Below are positions 5,363-25,610 of a stretch of 46,924 nt of DNA, piece after piece (position 1 is the stretch's first letter; every line of letters starts with the position of its first letter). The notes beneath the pieces are model-generated. The model worked only from the letters and a program-made list of their open reading frames with translations. It had not been told where the DNA came from and ran no database searches. The DNA comes from Gemmatimonadota bacterium (GTDB lineage: Bacteria; JAAXHH01). Position numbers and translations under genes: made by a program. The stretch lies in NCBI GenBank assembly GCA_026706345.1, contig JAPOYX010000239.1, positions 1 to 46,924 of the forward strand. Direction: 5' to 3'.

Positions 5363-5648
5363 CGGGCTCCTCCAATGCGGGCGCTGTGGACCGGACGCCG
5401 GATTTCTGCGGCCTGGCCATGGGGATGGGGATCTGGTGTTAAGATAGACCGCCCGGAAGTCTCGGCAATTCGAAAATGGAAAATGAAAGCCCACAGCGCC
5501 ATATTGACTGTCGAAAAAAGGCGTCGCGCATTATACTCGAGATTACTTGACCATCCCTGTACGGCGTCAGTCGCGGCAGGCTGGCGCGATCCTTCGATAG
5601 TTTTACACCCTATTTGCAGAAAGCAAACCACAACAGGAGCAAATCCAT

Positions 5649-6374
5649 ATGGCGGCGGGCAATTTGAAACAGCGCATTGGTGCGGGCGAGCAGATCATTG
5701 GCGCCAATGTCGGCATGACCCATACCCTGGAGCAGTTGAAAAAGATCGTTGAATCCGGAAAATTCGATTTTCTCTGGGTGGATGGACAACACAGTGCCTT
5801 CAGCGAAGACCGGCTGGTGGAGTTCTGCGACCGGGCCGATACGCTGGACGCCGACGTGGTATTCCGAATCAAGCACACCTGTCACAGCTATCTCGTCGGC
5901 AACCTGCTCGACCTCGGCCCGGCGGGGATCGAAGTGCCCCAGGTCGAAACGGAATCAACCGTCGAGGAGGCGGTCGACTTCTTCTACTACCCGCAGAAGG
6001 GCATGCGGAGCTGGGGAGGCGGGGCGCGGCGGAAAGTCAACGAAGTCGGGGGAGACCGGCTTCAGTACGCCGCATGGTGGAACAACTACGGCGTATTGAT
6101 GATCCAACTCGAATCGATCCCCGCGGTGACCGGTGCGCGGAGACTGGCCAAGGCGGGCGTGGACTGCCTGTCCTTCGGCCCGAACGATCTGATGTACAGT
6201 ATCGAAGCGCACCCGCAACACCCCTTCCGCGACGTGGACGACTGCGTCCAGCACGTGGTCGACCAACTCAGGGACTCTGACACGCGAGTATGCTTTCGCA
6301 ACTACGCGCCGGAAACCCGCCAGGAATACGTGGACATGGGTGTAACGGTATTTCTGGAGAATCCGGTTCTGTAA
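5649..6374 (+). CDS. HpcH/HpaI-family class II aldolase
   Basis: The 241-residue protein is an HpcH/HpaI (citrate-lyase-type) metal-dependent aldolase. Visible features are the WVDGQHSAF segment (the usual D-x-E-H region carrying the catalytic His), EVPQVET in place of the common metal-ligand loop, MIQLESIPAV with the metal-binding Glu, and SFGPNDLMYS near the end. Such enzymes cleave 2-keto-3-deoxy acids to pyruvate (or oxaloacetate) plus an aldehyde, which fits the two neighbouring aldonate dehydratases. AGGAG nine bases upstream supports the start. It is divergent from the UxuA-like gene with a 286-base gap in which I find no convincing promoter of standard spacing. Substrate is inference. 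Confidence 0.85.
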   Translation: MAAGNLKQRIGAGEQIIGANVGMTHTLEQLKKIVESGKFDFLWVDGQHSAFSEDRLVEFCDRADTLDADVVFRIKHTCHSYLVGNLLDLGPAGIEVPQVETESTVEEAVDFFYYPQKGMRSWGGGARRKVNEVGGDRLQYAAWWNNYGVLMIQLESIPAVTGARRLAKAGVDCLSFGPNDLMYSIEAHPQHPFRDVDDCVQHVVDQLRDSDTRVCFRNYAPETRQEYVDMGVTVFLENPVL

Positions 6375-6424
6375 ATTACCGGTTTGCCAACTGATATCGT
6401 AATCTTTTCCTGTCGGTCACGCCG

Positions 6425-6667
6425 CTAGTCCCTGCCCGACGAGAACGCGCCAAAAACCACGTTGGCCAGTATGAACGCCACGGCGAGCTTCAGCGATGTC
6501 GTCCAGGACAGGGTATCGACGATGAGACCCTGGGCCACCGCTTCGGGGAACAAATCGGGTATGATCCAGGCCCATAGCCATCTCAGAACCAGAATCGACA
6601 GGACAAAGATGACGACCATGGCAAGCAGTCCGATTGGAAGTATGTTCATGACTATCTTTTTATTCAC
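6425..6667 (-). CDS. Small two-helix membrane protein of unknown function
   Basis: This 80-residue protein begins at GTG with GGAGG seven bases upstream. It has two hydrophobic segments, roughly residues 9-35 (rich in Leu, Val and Trp) and 57-75, separated by a polar loop containing IPDLFPEAVAQGLI. I do not recognise the family. It starts 26 bases after the ABC exporter stop on the same strand, so it is probably translated from the same transcript and could be an accessory subunit. That link is based only on adjacency. Confidence 0.65.
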   Translation of the reverse strand: MNKKIVMNILPIGLLAMVVIFVLSILVLRWLWAWIIPDLFPEAVAQGLIVDTLSWTTSLKLAVAFILANVVFGAFSSGRD

Positions 6668-6693
6668 CGGATGACCTCCGCAAATGGTAGATT

Positions 6694-8487
6694 CTACTCG
6701 AAATCCAGCGCCTGGGCCTCGTACATTTTTGAGAAGATGCCACCGCGAGCTACCAGTTCTCTCGGTGTGCCCGATTCGACCAGTTTTCCTCCGTCGATGA
6801 CCAGGATGCGGTCCGCATGACGGATCGTGGACAGACGATGGGCAATGACGATGGCGGTTCGGCCCGTTCTTGCCTCTTCAACGGCTATTCTGATCTTCTC
6901 CTCGGCCAGGGCGTCCAGGGCGGAAGTGGCCTCGTCGAGAATCAGGATCCTCGCACTGCTACGCATGAATGCCCGTGCCAGCGCGATGCGTTGCTTCTCC
7001 CCTCCCGAGAGCGCGACCCCGCCCTCTCCCGCGAGCGTATCGAGGCCCTCCGGTTGATTTCCAATGAATTCTTCCAACGAGGAGGAATGCACGGCCCGGG
7101 CTACCATCTCCGGACGATAGTCGGTTTCGGGGTAAGCGATGTTCTCCGCGAGCGTGGCGTTCCAGATGAATACATCCTGGGACACCACGGCGATCTGGTT
7201 CCGCAGCGATTCAAGGGACATATCACGAATGTCCCTTCCAGCGACTGTGATCCGGCCGCTTTCAGGTTCCTGTAATCGGGTCAGCAGATCGATAATCGTG
7301 GTCTTCCCCCCACCGCTGGGACCCACGACGCCGACGAATTCCCCTCCGTTCATCCTGAACGACAGATCCTTCACCTCATAGCCCCGTTCGTATCTGAAAT
7401 CCACATTGGAAAATTCGATGGCCGGCGGTTCGATGACGAGCGGTTGAGGGCTGAACGTACCTCGCAGACCCGGTTCAAGGGGAAGATCGAACAGGTCGTT
7501 CAGACTCTCGACCGAGACCTTGATCAACCGTGTGCCGGTATAGGTGGTGAGCACCGTTCGCAACGCGGCGTACGCCCGAGGCGCATAGGCCATAATCGCC
7601 ACCAGGCTGCCGATGGTGACGGCATCGTCCATGACCTGGAATGCGCCGTATCCCAGCAGCACGCCAAGTACCAGTCCGTTGATTACTTCGTTCGGAAAAG
7701 TGAGCATGATGTCGTGGAGGGCCGCGCCTCGTATCTTGATCCGGGTGAGGCTGTCCATGTGGCCGGCCCACCGCCTCATGGCATGTTCCTCGCCGTTGAA
7801 CATGCGTATCGTGCGAAATGCGTTGAATACTTCGTAGAGAAAGCTCTCCGAGACCTTGCCCTGGTCGTTCACCTGCCGGTCCATTTCCTTCGAGTACCGG
7901 GTCAGGTACCGGGTCACGAGATAGGTCGCCGGCAACGCGGCGCAGAAGACGGCCGCCAATTCGACGTTCAAAACGAACATCACGGCCAGCACGCCGGCCA
8001 GCACGATCGCGCTGGAAACCACCGGCAACAACTCGTTCTTTATGTACATGTCGCCGATCTTGCCGGCATCCCGCGTTACCCGATAGACCATGCCGCCCCT
8101 GGGAATCTTCTCGACGGCATCGAGCCGCACGTGCAGCAGATGGTTCAAGACCGCCTTGCGCAGGGCCAGCGTTACCGTATAGCCTATTCGGACCCTGATA
8201 TGTCCCTCGAAATAGGAGATCCCGATCGCCACCAGGGGGGTCGCCACCATCCCCGTCAGCAGCCACCACAGCAGACCGGTGTCCGATTCCGGGATCACCC
8301 TGTCGAACAGCATCTTGTAAAACAGGGGCTGGACCAGCATGACGGCCGATCCCGCAAGCATCATGAGGACCACTGCGATAATGGCGTACTTGCGCCGATA
8401 CAGCGTCTGCCGGATTATCTCGGCGGTACGTGGCACTGAATCATGGTTTCCTTGGATTCGCCTGTTTTTCGGTTCGTCTGACGCCAT
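6694..8487 (-). CDS. ABC exporter, fused permease and ATPase (MsbA/LmrA type)
   Basis: This 597-residue half-transporter has an N-terminal six-helix exporter domain (about residues 30-330) followed by an ATPase domain. In the ATPase I see Walker A GPSGGGKTT (about 390), the signature LSGGEKQR (about 494), Walker B ILILDEATSALD and the H-loop IAHRLST. AAAGGAG nine bases before the ATG supports the start. It would work as a homodimer in the inner membrane, exporting a lipid, peptide or drug; the substrate cannot be read from sequence. A possible terminator lies upstream at 8580-8611, so it may be a separate unit from the aminotransferase gene. A small membrane protein follows 26 bases downstream. 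Confidence 0.92.
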   Translation of the reverse strand: MASDEPKNRRIQGNHDSVPRTAEIIRQTLYRRKYAIIAVVLMMLAGSAVMLVQPLFYKMLFDRVIPESDTGLLWWLLTGMVATPLVAIGISYFEGHIRVRIGYTVTLALRKAVLNHLLHVRLDAVEKIPRGGMVYRVTRDAGKIGDMYIKNELLPVVSSAIVLAGVLAVMFVLNVELAAVFCAALPATYLVTRYLTRYSKEMDRQVNDQGKVSESFLYEVFNAFRTIRMFNGEEHAMRRWAGHMDSLTRIKIRGAALHDIMLTFPNEVINGLVLGVLLGYGAFQVMDDAVTIGSLVAIMAYAPRAYAALRTVLTTYTGTRLIKVSVESLNDLFDLPLEPGLRGTFSPQPLVIEPPAIEFSNVDFRYERGYEVKDLSFRMNGGEFVGVVGPSGGGKTTIIDLLTRLQEPESGRITVAGRDIRDMSLESLRNQIAVVSQDVFIWNATLAENIAYPETDYRPEMVARAVHSSSLEEFIGNQPEGLDTLAGEGGVALSGGEKQRIALARAFMRSSARILILDEATSALDALAEEKIRIAVEEARTGRTAIVIAHRLSTIRHADRILVIDGGKLVESGTPRELVARGGIFSKMYEAQALDFE

Positions 8488-8642: not shown

Positions 8643-9914
8643 CTAACCCTGGTTCGACCCACCCAGGATATCCTCGAGTTCATTCACGAACACCTCGAGT
8701 TCGTCCGGCTTGCCGATGGTGACCCGCAGATGATTTCCGAGGAGATCGGTCTCCCTGGTGCGGTATCCCGATCCGGCGCGCACCATAACACCGCGTCTGA
8801 ACAGTTCGCCCGACATCCGCCGGCTGTCCCGCTTGACGTCCACGATCATGTAGTTTCCGTGGCTCGGCGTATACGCCAGTCCCAGGCGGTCGAACTCGGC
8901 AGACAGGTATTCCTTGCCGTCGTTCACGACCTTCAGCGTGCGCGCCACGAATTCATCGTCGTCCAGGGCCGCCAGCGCCGCGTGCATGCCCAGCGTGCTC
9001 AGCCCGCCCCCGAAGAAACCCATGTGCGCCATCAGCATATCCATCATCCGCTGGCCAGCGACGGCGTACCCGATGCGCATGCCGGCCAGGCCGTAGATCT
9101 TGGAGAAGGTGCGGGCGACCACCACGTTTTCCCGCTCCAGGGCGAGTTTGACGGCATCCTGGTAGTCCGGATCCCGAACGAAGTGGATATAGGCTTCGTC
9201 GATGAGCACGATGGCCTTCTCGGGCGCCGCATCCACCAGGGACACCAGTTCGTCGTAAGGCACAATCGTTCCGGTGGGATTGTTGGGATTGGTGACGACG
9301 ATCAGGGACGTATTCGGGGTGATGGCCGCCTTCATGGCGCCAAGATCGTGCACGAAATCACCCGTGGTCGGCACGCGGACGACGCTGACGTTCTTCCCCA
9401 TCATCTGAAAACTCTGAAATCCCCGTGCGACCGATCCATATCCCGGGACCGCCTCGATACACTCCCTGCCGTCGCTCGCGGCCATGACGGCGAGCGCCTG
9501 AAGAATCGGACCCGAACCGGGGGTAACCATGATCCGGTTCAATTCCCTGAAACGCATGAAGGAGCGCATGTCAGTGAAACTCAGTTCGAAATTCTCGACG
9601 CCGGGGACGCCGTGGAACTTGTTGAGGCGGACCGGCAGGTCGACGCCGAAATCGTATCGGTTGATTTTATGCAGGTTCTCGGCGATGGCCGCAATGGCAC
9701 GGGGGGACGCGCCAAGCGGGTTCTCGTTGGCACCGATCTGAACCCGGCCCGGATCAACACCGTAGCCATGGACGTCGCTCGCCTTCTTGCCGGTGGCGAG
9801 CGCTTCCGCGATGTCCCAGGTCGATCCCGCGGCCACGGCGCCGGCGCCCAGCAAAGCGCCCTTCATGAAACGACGCCGGGTGAAACCGTTCTTCAGTACA
9901 CTCCCGAAACCCAT
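8643..9914 (-). CDS. Tat-exported PLP aminotransferase, HisC-like fold type I
   Basis: Starting at the ATG at 9914 gives 423 residues; GGAGG at 9922-9926 is seven bases away, whereas the nearby ATG at 9920 would be only one base away. The N-terminus has a twin-arginine signal, TRRRFMKGALL followed by an Ala/Gly-rich hydrophobic stretch. The rest is a class I/II aminotransferase similar to histidinol-phosphate aminotransferases: ENPLG, NPNNPTG, LIDEAY and the PLP lysine in TFSKIYGLAG, with MRIGYA after it. Tat export of a folded, cofactor-loaded aminotransferase to the periplasm is uncommon. It follows the GMC oxidoreductase gene after 53 bases on the same strand. Substrate is unknown; histidine synthesis is unlikely for a periplasmic enzyme. 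Confidence 0.88.
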   Translation of the reverse strand: MGFGSVLKNGFTRRRFMKGALLGAGAVAAGSTWDIAEALATGKKASDVHGYGVDPGRVQIGANENPLGASPRAIAAIAENLHKINRYDFGVDLPVRLNKFHGVPGVENFELSFTDMRSFMRFRELNRIMVTPGSGPILQALAVMAASDGRECIEAVPGYGSVARGFQSFQMMGKNVSVVRVPTTGDFVHDLGAMKAAITPNTSLIVVTNPNNPTGTIVPYDELVSLVDAAPEKAIVLIDEAYIHFVRDPDYQDAVKLALERENVVVARTFSKIYGLAGMRIGYAVAGQRMMDMLMAHMGFFGGGLSTLGMHAALAALDDDEFVARTLKVVNDGKEYLSAEFDRLGLAYTPSHGNYMIVDVKRDSRRMSGELFRRGVMVRAGSGYRTRETDLLGNHLRVTIGKPDELEVFVNELEDILGGSNQG

Positions 9915-9967
9915 GATCATGCCTCCGCAATTAAAAGTGATCAAACCACGTTCTGAGCTCGAACCTG

Positions 9968-11635
9968 CTACCTGATATTCAATCTTGACATCTGCGTAAT
10001 GATGTAATCGGCGCAGCGGAACGCCAACGCCTGGATCGTCAGCGTCGGATTGCTCTTTCCGCTGGTGACGAAGGACGAACCGTCCACGATGAACAGGTTG
10101 TCCACGTCGTGGGCCTGGTTGAACTTGTTGACCACCGAAGTCGCCGGATCGTTGCCCATGCGGCAGGTACCCATGAGATGAGCGTCGCCGTGGGGTACGA
10201 AATTCGGTGAGGCGACGATCCCGTGGGCCCCGGCGGTGTCGAGCAGCTCACGGGCCCGGTCGCGGAAGAAGTCCCCGAGTTTATGCTCGTTCGGATGCAC
10301 GTTGTAGGTTACGCGCGGGACAGGCAGGCCCCACTTGTCCCTGACGTCTGGATCCAGGTCTATCGTATTGGATTCCTGGGACATGGACTGCATGCTCGTC
10401 AGGGCGACCATGTAGCGGGTGTAGTTGTCCATGATCCATTTCTTGCGCCGGGCGCCCCACCTGCGAAGGCGCGGCATGTTCAGGTTGGCGAAAGATATGG
10501 TTTCGCCGTCTCCCCGCGGTTCCAGCACGCCCCCGCCGAAGAAGCCGTACTTGTCCGGATCGGGGTCGTAGACATCCTGTATGATCCGGGAATCCATGAC
10601 CCCCTTGTACTCGTTCAGATCCTTCTCGAAGAAACCCCGCGCGGACTGGTAGTAGTTGAACATGAGGTGCCTGCCCACCTTGCCGCTGCTGTTCGCCAGA
10701 CCGTCCGGAAAGAGATTCGATTTGGACATGAGCAGGAGGCGGGGGGTATGGACGCCGTTGCAGCAGACGATCACGGCACGGGCCTCCAGGCGATGCTCCC
10801 GAAGGTCCTTGTCGAGGTAGATGACCCCTTCCGCTCTGCCGTCCTCGTCGACGACGATCTCCCGCACGCAGGAATCGGCCCGCACCTCGCAGTTGCCCGT
10901 CCTCAGCGCACGGGGGATCATGGTGACCAGCATGCTGGACCGAGCGCCGATGGTACAGACGTAGCTTTCACAAAAGCCACAGTTCATGACCGGCGGCCGC
11001 CCGCCGTATTCCCGGGAGTTGATGGCCAGCGGCGCCGGGTAGGAGTGCCAGCCCAGCTTCTGGGCCGCCATGTCGGCCAGGGCGCCCGAGCTGGTCCGCG
11101 GCACCGGCGGCATGGGATAGGGCCGGCGGCGCGGCGGATCGAAGGGATTGGCGCCGGCGAGTCCAGAGATGCCGACTTCGTACTCGGCCTTTTCGTAGTA
11201 GTGCTCGAGGTCCCAGTAGTCGATGGGCCAGTCCTGCACGTCCGCGCCGTCCAGGTCGCCGAAGAGGCTTCGCTCCTTGAAATCGTTCTCGTGGAGCCGC
11301 CAGGATATGCCCGTGTAGTGGAGCGTGCTGCCGCCCACCGTGCTCTGCATGTGAATCCCGTGATCCTCGATGGCCTGTTCACTGGCCGACTGCCGGTAGG
11401 TATTGGGCTGGTCATGGCGATAGATGTCGGCGTGTTCATGCAGGCTGCTGCTGGCGGGATGCATCGCCGTGAGCTCGTCCTGGTCGAAGTGCCGCGTCTT
11501 CAGGAAGGGCCCCATTTCCATGGCGACGACCCTTAGGCCCTGCGTGCTCAGTTCCTTCGCCATGACGGCGCCGGCGGCACCGGTGCCGATGATGATGACG
11601 TCAGGTCGGCGGATTCTGGGATTGGGAAGGGACAT
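9968..11635 (-). CDS. GMC-family FAD oxidoreductase, gluconate 2-dehydrogenase large-subunit-like
   Basis: This 555-residue flavoprotein has an N-terminal dinucleotide-binding motif, IIGTGAAGAVMAKEL, and the typical C-terminal GMC block HLMGTCRMG followed by LFIVDGSSF and SNPTLTIQALAFR. The length and pairing with a subunit-3-like Tat protein match membrane-associated gluconate 2-dehydrogenase-type enzymes, which oxidise sugars or sugar acids in the periplasm and pass electrons to a cytochrome. It has no signal peptide of its own, so export would rely on riding with the small subunit, as known for this family. GGAG five bases before the ATG supports the start; only 13 bases separate it from the small-subunit stop. 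No cytochrome c subunit is encoded next to it. Confidence 0.9.
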   Translation of the reverse strand: MSLPNPRIRRPDVIIIGTGAAGAVMAKELSTQGLRVVAMEMGPFLKTRHFDQDELTAMHPASSSLHEHADIYRHDQPNTYRQSASEQAIEDHGIHMQSTVGGSTLHYTGISWRLHENDFKERSLFGDLDGADVQDWPIDYWDLEHYYEKAEYEVGISGLAGANPFDPPRRRPYPMPPVPRTSSGALADMAAQKLGWHSYPAPLAINSREYGGRPPVMNCGFCESYVCTIGARSSMLVTMIPRALRTGNCEVRADSCVREIVVDEDGRAEGVIYLDKDLREHRLEARAVIVCCNGVHTPRLLLMSKSNLFPDGLANSSGKVGRHLMFNYYQSARGFFEKDLNEYKGVMDSRIIQDVYDPDPDKYGFFGGGVLEPRGDGETISFANLNMPRLRRWGARRKKWIMDNYTRYMVALTSMQSMSQESNTIDLDPDVRDKWGLPVPRVTYNVHPNEHKLGDFFRDRARELLDTAGAHGIVASPNFVPHGDAHLMGTCRMGNDPATSVVNKFNQAHDVDNLFIVDGSSFVTSGKSNPTLTIQALAFRCADYIITQMSRLNIR

Positions 11636-11648
11636 GATCGCTCCGGAA

Positions 11649-12329
11649 CTACTCCTTGCCGATGATCCTGCTCTTCATAGGTCCGCCGTAGGGCTGCCAT
11701 TCGGGGTAGGCGATCTCCGGAATGGTCATGTCGAATTCACTGAAGGGGGGATCGTAGCCGAAAGGCGCACGGCCCGGGAAACGGATCAGCTTCCATCCAG
11801 TCTCACGGTAATTCCCGCCGTGGGCTGGATCGCAGAACATCCCTTCCATGGTATGCGTAACCACTATGCGCAGGAAGTCGCGGGCGCCCATGGGGGCGTC
11901 CTGCGGCCATTCCCGGGGAGACCTGGCCCGGTCGATTCCCATGAGCGCTCTTCGCTTTCCCCGGGTATCCAGATCCACGAAATCGGATTCGAGCGTAGCC
12001 CGGCAATACCGGTCGAAGGTGTCGAGGCCGGCTGTATAGGACGCCTTGTAGTCTGACCGATGGGCGCCGAGGGCCTGGTCGATATACACGACCACGCGGG
12101 CTTCCGCCGCGCCGGGACCGTTTTCGTCCGACGGCATGATCATCCGGGTCAGGGCATCCACCGTCCGTCCCTGGCGGGCGTCCAGATTCTGCCAGACATG
12201 TTCGTAAGGGACGTCCTCCTGCGCGTCGAGGACGCCGGTCCGGCTGAGTACGCCCAGCGTGACCACGCCGCCCGTGGCCCGGGCGGTGTTGGATATAAAC
12301 GACCTGCGTGAAAACCGCTTGGTAGTCAT
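11649..12329 (-). CDS. Gluconate 2-dehydrogenase subunit 3 family protein with Tat signal
   Basis: I place the start at the ATG at 12329, giving 226 residues beginning MTTKRFSRRSFISNTA, a twin-arginine signal with a hydrophobic stretch after it. The mature part begins with a helical segment around LDARQGRTVDALTRMIMP and DENGPGAAEA, typical of the gluconate 2-dehydrogenase subunit 3 family. FCDPAHGGNYRETGW in the middle and the WQPYGGP tail are also characteristic. The subunit normally carries the FAD subunit across the membrane and stabilises the complex. It is the first gene of a minus-strand unit with the GMC oxidoreductase and the aminotransferase. A longer frame to 12362 exists but has no better ribosome binding site. 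Confidence 0.87.
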   Translation of the reverse strand: MTTKRFSRRSFISNTARATGGVVTLGVLSRTGVLDAQEDVPYEHVWQNLDARQGRTVDALTRMIMPSDENGPGAAEARVVVYIDQALGAHRSDYKASYTAGLDTFDRYCRATLESDFVDLDTRGKRRALMGIDRARSPREWPQDAPMGARDFLRIVVTHTMEGMFCDPAHGGNYRETGWKLIRFPGRAPFGYDPPFSEFDMTIPEIAYPEWQPYGGPMKSRIIGKE

Positions 12330-24386: not shown

Positions 24387-24491
24387 TTTCCGGTCGGCCT
24401 GGCCGGAGCGTTTGATCCGGGCGTGTTTCACGTTTTAAGGACACCGGACTGATTGCCGAACTCGATATCAACCTGTTCACGGAGGAAAAGG

Positions 24492-25610
24492 ATGGATAAG
24501 ATCAAGCGAAGGGAGTTTCTGAAGACGGCATCTACGGCCGGACTGGCCGGAGGAGCCGCGCTGATGGCTGGATGCGGGTCGGGACAGGAAAGCGGCGGTC
24601 CCGCCATCCGCACGGACAAGACCTATGAATGGAAGATGGTCACGACGTGGACGCCGAACCTGCCTATTCTACAGGAGAGCGCGCGGCTTCTGGCCGAATG
24701 GGTGGAGGAAATGTCCGAGGGGAGGATGAAGATCACGGTGTACGCGGGCGGTGAGCTGATCCCAGCTCTCGAGGGATTCGAAGCGGTGAGCCAGGGCGTG
24801 GCGGAAATGGGACACGGCGCCGCGTACTACTGGGCAGGCAAGGCACCTGCCACGCAGTTCTTTTCGTCGGTACCCTTCGGAATGAACGCGCAGCAGGTCA
24901 CAGCCTGGCTCTACAGCGGAGGCGGCTTGCGGTTGTGGGAGGATATCTACGCCCCCTTCAATCTGGTCCCCATGCCCGCGGGCAATACCGGATTCCAGAT
25001 GGGGGGATGGTTCCGGCAGGAGATCAACACCGCCGACGACCTGCAGGGACTGAAAATGCGCATACCCGGCCTGGGGGGAGACGTGATCAAGCGGGCGGGC
25101 GGTTCGGCCATTCTGTCTCCCGTTGGAGAGATCTACACCAACCTGGAACGCGGCGTCATCGACGCTACCGAGTGGATCGGTCCTTACCACGATTACCTCA
25201 TGGGATTCTACCGGGCGGCTCAGTATTACTACTACCCGGGCTGGCATGAGCCGGGAACCGTGACGGAACTTATGGTCAACAAGAGCGCCTTCGAGGAACT
25301 GCCGCAGTACCTGCAGACGGTGATTCGGACCGCGGCGGCCCGATCGACCCATTGGGTGCTGTCCGAGTTCGACGCCAGGAACAATGAATACCTGCAGAAA
25401 CTGATAAACGAAGAAGGGGTACAGCTTCGCCGGTTCCCCGATACCGTGCTTAGGACTCTCAAGGGATACGCGGACGAAGTCATCACCCAGCTGATCGACA
25501 CGGACGAAGACAGCAGGAAAGTGTACGAGTCCTTCATCGCTTTTCGGAAGACGGTAAGCGGCTGGACGGACCTGGGAGAGAAGATCTACTACTCCGGCGC
25601 CATGGGGTAA
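24492..25610 (+). CDS. TRAP transporter substrate-binding protein, DctP/TakP-like, Tat lipoprotein
   Basis: GGAGG about seven bases before the ATG at 24492 fixes the start of this 372-residue protein; a frame to 24453 is spurious. The N-terminus KRREFLKTASTAGLAGG is a twin-arginine signal ending in a lipobox-like LMAGC near residue 28. The mature part begins WKMVTTWTPNLPIL and continues with the DctP-family pattern: MGHGAAYYWAGKAP, LQGLKMRIPGLGGDV, GEIYTNLERGVIDATEWIGPY and LMVNKSAFEELP. The Arg in KMRIPG should contact the ligand carboxylate. TakP-like proteins bind 2-oxo acids. The two membrane subunits (DctQ and DctM types) are not in the window, which is unusual. Confidence 0.9.
   Translation: MDKIKRREFLKTASTAGLAGGAALMAGCGSGQESGGPAIRTDKTYEWKMVTTWTPNLPILQESARLLAEWVEEMSEGRMKITVYAGGELIPALEGFEAVSQGVAEMGHGAAYYWAGKAPATQFFSSVPFGMNAQQVTAWLYSGGGLRLWEDIYAPFNLVPMPAGNTGFQMGGWFRQEINTADDLQGLKMRIPGLGGDVIKRAGGSAILSPVGEIYTNLERGVIDATEWIGPYHDYLMGFYRAAQYYYYPGWHEPGTVTELMVNKSAFEELPQYLQTVIRTAAARSTHWVLSEFDARNNEYLQKLINEEGVQLRRFPDTVLRTLKGYADEVITQLIDTDEDSRKVYESFIAFRKTVSGWTDLGEKIYYSGAMG

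Follow-up and report, generated by a model that had tools for sequence, protein, structure and literature searches.

Transamination is usually treated as a cytoplasmic process, and an aminotransferase that carries its own export signal and is encoded beside an exported dehydrogenase raises the question of whether the two enzymes work in one route outside the cytoplasmic membrane. We examined such a locus on contig JAPOYX010000239.1 (46,924 nucleotides, referred to here as the window) of assembly GCA_026706345.1, a genome deposited as Gemmatimonadota and comprising 4.49 Mb in 293 contigs. Three closely spaced genes on the minus strand of the window encode a Gluconate_2-dh3 small subunit (subunit 3), a GMC-family flavin adenine dinucleotide (FAD) dehydrogenase and a HisC-like pyridoxal 5'-phosphate (PLP) aminotransferase. 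This trio joins a predicted exported transaminase resembling periplasmic transaminase A (PtaA) to a predicted exported pair resembling gluconate dehydrogenase, and it belongs to a lineage in which aminotransferases of this exported type have undergone an unexpectedly large expansion. We lean, with modest confidence, towards functional coupling of the dehydrogenase and the aminotransferase in a single periplasmic route.

A conserved trio of dehydrogenase and aminotransferase genes

The subunit-3 gene (11649..12329, minus strand) encodes a protein of 226 residues with the twin-arginine translocation (Tat) motif SRRSFIS, and the protein matches PF13618 at 83.1 bits against a cut-off of 23.4. It is separated by 13 bp from the gene for the GMC catalytic subunit (9968..11635, minus strand; 555 residues, PF05199/PF00732), which lies 53 bp from the gene for the class I/II aminotransferase (8643..9914, minus strand; 423 residues, Tat motif TRRRFMKG). 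The aminotransferase matches PF00155 at 155.3 bits, above the cut-off. Its start is likely the ATG at 9914, with GGAGG seven bases before it; the open reading frame list begins at a TTG upstream of this ATG, and the signal TRRRFMKGALLGAGAVAAGS is retained with either start. The sequence thus places the trio in an operon-like arrangement.

Near-identical loci in named records identify the window genome as a metagenome-assembled genome of an uncultured Candidatus Latescibacterota bacterium. JAAXHH010000141 and JAJEEG010000006 represent relatives with aminotransferases 89-97% identical. Public record titles for other contigs of the same genus or family (L070, L078, L086 and L093; L083 and L087) read Gemmatimonadetes or Zixiibacteriota, and the naming of these metagenome-assembled genomes is inconsistent. 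The isolate names on some of the relatives' records resemble what we take to be sponge projects. Latescibacterota associated with sponges have been described (PMC12993501).

The earlier note on this DNA had made conservation of gene order one test of its proposal, and within Latescibacterota the order holds where other synteny has been lost. The GMC and aminotransferase genes were adjacent throughout the genus wherever the contig allowed, with the subunit-3 gene beside the GMC gene. The three genes were also adjacent and identical in order, with different flanks, at L051 (genome G012, from a further genus of this family) and at L052 (genome G014, from a different family within the order). A third genus (L050, genome G013) has the trio genes clustered in rearranged order, with three c-type cytochrome genes in the same run. 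The GMC and subunit-3 genes occurred in the same genomes, and in G015 this pair stands at a contig end; fragment C799 was considered as the absent trio aminotransferase of G015 and rejected because the tree placed it with another paralogue. Absence of all three genes from G007 was likewise rejected as a case of joint loss: the LD-carboxypeptidase ortholog is absent as well, and the sole HpcH match is 55% identical and is not the syntenic ortholog, which is 85-90% identical. The block is probably just unassembled in that genome.

Outside the order, the three-gene neighbourhood was not recovered, and the exported aminotransferases found there do not lie beside GMC or subunit-3 genes. Among 80 loci from genome contigs, no GMC or subunit-3 neighbours were observed outside Latescibacterota, two same-genus orthologs being the exception. 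The plasmid collection yielded ordinary HisC-type proteins only, among the matches listed.

An MsbA-like ATP-binding cassette (ABC) exporter gene lies between the aminotransferase gene and an HpcH aldolase gene (window 6694-8487). It is variably present within the genus and missing in L040, L041, L044 and L046. We considered it as a fourth member of the unit and rejected it because several relatives, including the closest (L040), lack it between the aminotransferase and HpcH genes.

Tat signals on the small subunit and the aminotransferase

Twin-arginine signals were present at the N-terminus of the small subunit (MTTKRFSRRSFISNTARATGGVVTLGVLSRTGVLDAQ / FSRRSFISNTARATGGVVTLGVLSRTG; residues 1 to about 23, 12261..12329, minus strand) and of the aminotransferase (FTRRRFMKGALLGAGAVAAGS; residues 1 to about 22, 9848..9914, minus strand). 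We applied a rule requiring a twin arginine plus a hydrophobic segment to the called genes of the genome, and 17 of 174 were positive. Nine of the 17 belong to this aminotransferase set or correspond to the small subunit, which leaves a background of about 5% and indicates that the signals are not due to chance.

Wherever the N-terminus of an ortholog could be read, the signal was present, at identities as low as 53% for the aminotransferase and 39% for the small subunit. All trio-group aminotransferase orthologs share [ST]RR-x-F-[MLV]-x-G over the same range. All full-length small subunits share [ST]RR-x-F, and an SRR motif with a hydrophobic segment was found in nine of nine aligned orthologs. 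TatC is encoded in the genome, and both proteins are likely exported, as predicted from these signals. The paired Tat signals that the earlier note had described are thus real and conserved, and the refuting outcome that it named, aminotransferase homologues mostly lacking the signal, did not occur within Latescibacterota.

The GMC protein between them has no signal peptide of its own, also as first described. This arrangement is consistent with export in company with subunit 3, the mode established from structure for the FAD-dependent glucose dehydrogenase (FAD-GDH) of Burkholderia cepacia (PMC6719666). A further protein of the window (24453-25610) bears a Tat-like signal with a cysteine after it (KRREFLKTASTAGLAGGAALMAGCGSG) and is possibly a Tat-exported lipoprotein.

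The GMC protein and subunit 3 resemble FAD-GDH-type complexes

The closest Protein Data Bank (PDB) relatives of the GMC protein were the large subunits of FAD glucose dehydrogenase (6a2u/8hdd) and fructose dehydrogenase (7w2j), with E about 1e-62 to 1e-58. Its FAD motif is GTGAAG, and its active-site residues are intact. Cys219, Cys222 and Cys227 and the catalytic pair His486/Asn529 were invariant in seven orthologs, down to 68% identity. In the B. cepacia enzyme (BcGDH), Cys212, Cys218 and Cys222 bind the 3Fe-4S cluster, His476/Asn519 form the catalytic pair, and the gamma subunit acts as a Tat hitchhiker (PMC6719666). The three GMC cysteines fall in the region aligned to these ligands, but their spacing differs (CxxCxxxxC in the trio protein). 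They are candidate ligands, and the GMC protein likely carries a 3Fe-4S cluster on them.

The trio thus shares with gluconate 2-dehydrogenase, FAD-GDH and fructose dehydrogenase a signal-less GMC subunit with three invariant cysteines and a His/Asn pair, accompanied by a small subunit with a Tat signal. The subunit-3 protein is presumed to be the hitchhiker or chaperone subunit. It has no sequence relative in the PDB, and a fold search for likeness to BcGDH gamma gave no significant match with an AlphaFold2 (AF2) model of poor quality (mean predicted local distance difference test score, pLDDT, 58.5). The ortholog alignment of subunit 3 contained no conserved cysteine for an inter-subunit disulfide such as that in BcGDH.

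Unlike the FAD-GDH-type complexes, the window trio has no multihaem cytochrome c subunit, and no CxxCH protein was found among the called window genes. In the rearranged G013 cluster, three c-type cytochrome genes with four, three and one CxxCH motifs (L050:2160-2981, 5641-6333 and 6317-6727) are interleaved with the trio. These cytochromes are likely the electron acceptors of the GMC enzyme.

The aminotransferase is related to HisC and PtaA and distinct from both

The PLP site of the aminotransferase is intact: Lys272 (in RTFSKIYGLAGMR), Asn212, Asp239, Tyr242, Arg280 and Arg397 were invariant in the alignment. The AF2 model (mean pLDDT 77.8) gave HisC structures 3ffh and 3ly1 as its top PDB matches, with a template modelling (TM) score of about 0.84-0.88 by target. 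The top NCBIfam match by E-value was hisC (TIGR01141) at 226.2 bits, under the equivalog cut-off of 276.55. NF006580/PRK09105 matched at 224.9 bits, under its cut-off of 444, in a profile alignment over residues 9-416, which takes in both the signal region and the entire enzyme, and the PtaA model NF051461 matched at 165.7 bits, under its cut-off of 500. By these curated cut-offs, the window aminotransferase is not HisC, PRK09105 or PtaA. It shares the fold and PLP-site residues of HisC but differs in having a Tat signal, and the genome also encodes separate HisC-like proteins that lack one.

PtaA of Pseudomonas fluorescens, which acts in pyoverdine tailoring, is exported by Tat with its PLP cofactor (PMC6206403). 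The window enzyme resembles it as a PLP aminotransferase of HisC-like type that is predicted, from its Tat signal, to be exported. There is no pyoverdine context at the trio. PtaA is described as usually encoded outside pyoverdine clusters, whereas the window gene and those of an exported dehydrogenase make up a conserved unit, and its family numbers about nine copies in the genome.

Tat-signal aminotransferases form one clade that is expanded in Latescibacterota

In a maximum-likelihood tree of 76 aminotransferase sequences, the Tat-bearing enzymes formed one clade (100/99) separate from cytosolic HisC, with a few members lacking a signal. RR-F/L-K-G plus a hydrophobic segment was present in nearly all of the 54 rows of this clade and absent from the cytosolic HisC rows. 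Members came from Latescibacterota, Woeseiaceae, other Gammaproteobacteria, Zixiibacteriota, Bacteroidota and Acidobacteriota. The trio aminotransferases form one subclade (100/98), sister (94/88) to the Woeseiaceae enzymes.

Latescibacterota genomes encode 8-13 exported aminotransferases each. Tat signals were found in 9 of 10 copies in the window genome, 8 of 9 in each of G001 and G006, 13 of 14 in G013 and all seven tested in G015. Genomes outside Latescibacterota that carry the family had one to four matches in all, cytosolic HisC counted in. The expansion loci of the window genome (G000) are L024, L032 (two copies), L033, L034, L036, L037 and L038, and those of relatives are L181-L218; the listing for G000 gives L032 a second time as L035 and omits the window copy. 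One tandem pair lies at G000:C23:58313-60737. In two Cytophagales (L121:8306-9859 and L138:8290-9837), the gene after that of the exported aminotransferase encodes a flavin amine oxidase family protein with a Tat signal, the Pfam comparison covering L121.

The Woeseiaceae sister clade lies beside a PQQ dehydrogenase

Marine Woeseiaceae carry a conserved same-strand block encoding an amidohydrolase, a pyrroloquinoline quinone (PQQ) dehydrogenase fused to cytochrome c, an M24-family protein, the Tat aminotransferase and an NHL protein. By eye, the N-termini of the block proteins look exported. The PQQ dehydrogenase-cytochrome c gene was two genes from the aminotransferase gene in eight of the ten loci with the aminotransferase called (L251-L257 and L259-L261) and is not shown in L256 and L259. 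The exported aminotransferase clade is thus paired with two different, unrelated exported dehydrogenases.

The Woeseiaceae block is followed by a racemase gene and then, where the contig permits, by a desulfhydrase-family gene. The Woeseiaceae genes tested scored above the cut-offs for cysteate racemase CuyB (237-238 against 190) and D-cysteate sulfo-lyase CuyA (494-529 against 450). CuyB and CuyA are part of a route that oxidises a hydroxy-sulfonate, forms cysteate by amination, and then racemises and cleaves it; for Ruegeria pomeroyi, the gene behind the amination step is reported to be unknown (PMC11382572). The Woeseiaceae loci likewise combine a dehydrogenase, an aminotransferase, CuyB and CuyA, as in the conversion of 2,3-dihydroxypropane-1-sulfonate (DHPS) or sulfolactate to cysteate. 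The block in L251-L257, L260 and L261 may represent a C3-sulfonate locus, some steps of which would be periplasmic. A cysteate route was rejected for Latescibacterota: neither CuyA nor CuyB was found above cut-off in those searched, and the cysteate lead is therefore limited to the Woeseiaceae enzyme.

One periplasmic route or separate roles

By analogy with known relatives, the GMC and subunit-3 proteins would fold and acquire FAD before export and then cross the membrane jointly through Tat on the subunit-3 signal, with electrons predicted to pass from FAD to the iron-sulfur cluster and on to a c-type cytochrome. The aminotransferase would fold with PLP in the cytoplasm and be exported as the holoenzyme, as are PvdN and PtaA (PMC6206403). 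If the two enzymes are coupled, the dehydrogenase would turn an alcohol (a sugar, polyol or hydroxy acid) into a carbonyl outside the cytoplasmic membrane, and the aminotransferase would interconvert this carbonyl with an amine, the partner amino donor or acceptor also being periplasmic. Such a shared route is favoured because the trio is conserved and because the sister clade has a different exported dehydrogenase.

Several observations weigh against it. None of the other exported copies in the window genome neighbours a GMC or subunit-3 gene, which shows that the aminotransferase family can do without a GMC dehydrogenase. In Woeseiaceae, the aminotransferase gene directly adjoins that of the M24 peptidase-family protein, not the dehydrogenase gene, and the L080/L259 member lies among M28, M20 and arginase-family genes with no dehydrogenase. 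The trio proteins have also diverged unequally: the G014 orthologs are 71% (GMC), 39% (small subunit) and 53% (aminotransferase) identical. The two neighbourhood facts that count against the shared route are the occurrence of paralogues without this dehydrogenase and the recurrence of peptidase and amidohydrolase families nearby.

We consider possible but doubtful an alternative in which the genes are co-transcribed and the enzymes biochemically separate. The dehydrogenase would feed the respiratory chain with electrons drawn from a sugar or alcohol, and the aminotransferase, as one of several paralogues differing in substrate, would catabolically deaminate periplasmic amino acids or peptide-derived amines. 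The 8-13 exported paralogues per genome, with no GMC neighbours where checked, agree with such roles, as do the peptide and amide hydrolase genes near the clade: an S66 LD-carboxypeptidase family gene in the window, genes of amidohydrolase families at L051 and L052, M24 and amidohydrolase genes near the Woeseiaceae members, and the M28, M20 and arginase-family genes in L080. However, separate roles do not readily account for the adjacency of the trio across two families despite lost synteny, or for the PQQ dehydrogenase with which the sister clade is independently paired.

A periplasmic role in tailoring a siderophore or other secreted natural product, with the dehydrogenase as a further tailoring enzyme, is improbable for the aminotransferase. 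PtaA is a precedent for a Tat-exported transaminase working in that compartment (PMC6206403), and the window enzyme does match its model. That match is far under the cut-off, we noticed no gene for a nonribosomal peptide synthetase, polyketide synthase or siderophore next to the trio, and the neighbourhoods of the paralogues are diverse and non-biosynthetic. A cytosolic HisC or aromatic aminotransferase with a non-working N-terminal twin-arginine stretch is very improbable: the catalytic core is HisC-like and TIGR01141 is the top NCBIfam match, but the score is under the hisC cut-off, the signal is found in all orthologs and nearly all of the clade and not in cytosolic HisC rows, and the genome has its own signal-less HisC-like genes.

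We continue to regard coupling of the dehydrogenase and the aminotransferase as plausible. The oxidise-then-aminate sequence of the earlier note draws indirect support from the different exported dehydrogenase of the sister clade and is weakened by the paralogues that lack a GMC partner, and its suggestion of an amino sugar or cell-surface precursor as the product found no support. A broader scheme is speculative and, taken as a whole, unlikely. In this scheme, both Latescibacterota and certain marine Gammaproteobacteria would make a carbonyl with an exported dehydrogenase linked to cytochromes, of the FAD-GMC type in one lineage and the PQQ type in the other, and an exported HisC-like transaminase would aminate that carbonyl or a derivative outside the cytoplasm. 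The Woeseiaceae enzymes may supply the aminotransferase step of the cysteate route, and the roughly nine Latescibacterota transaminases would represent diversified periplasmic amino-group exchange.

Implications for extracytoplasmic amino-group chemistry

PtaA is the best-studied exported transaminase that we found and the experimental precedent for the trio enzyme. The present reading would also caution against labelling proteins of this kind histidinol-phosphate aminotransferase. The sister-clade loci point to concrete candidate substrates, C3 sulfonates such as cysteate and sulfopyruvate. The presence of many exported aminotransferases in one genome suggests that extracytoplasmic amino-group chemistry is wider than one well-studied case. 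If the proposed coupling is correct, an exported dehydrogenase-transaminase unit, together with 8-13 exported copies per genome, would make periplasmic amino-group chemistry a part of routine metabolism in some bacteria.

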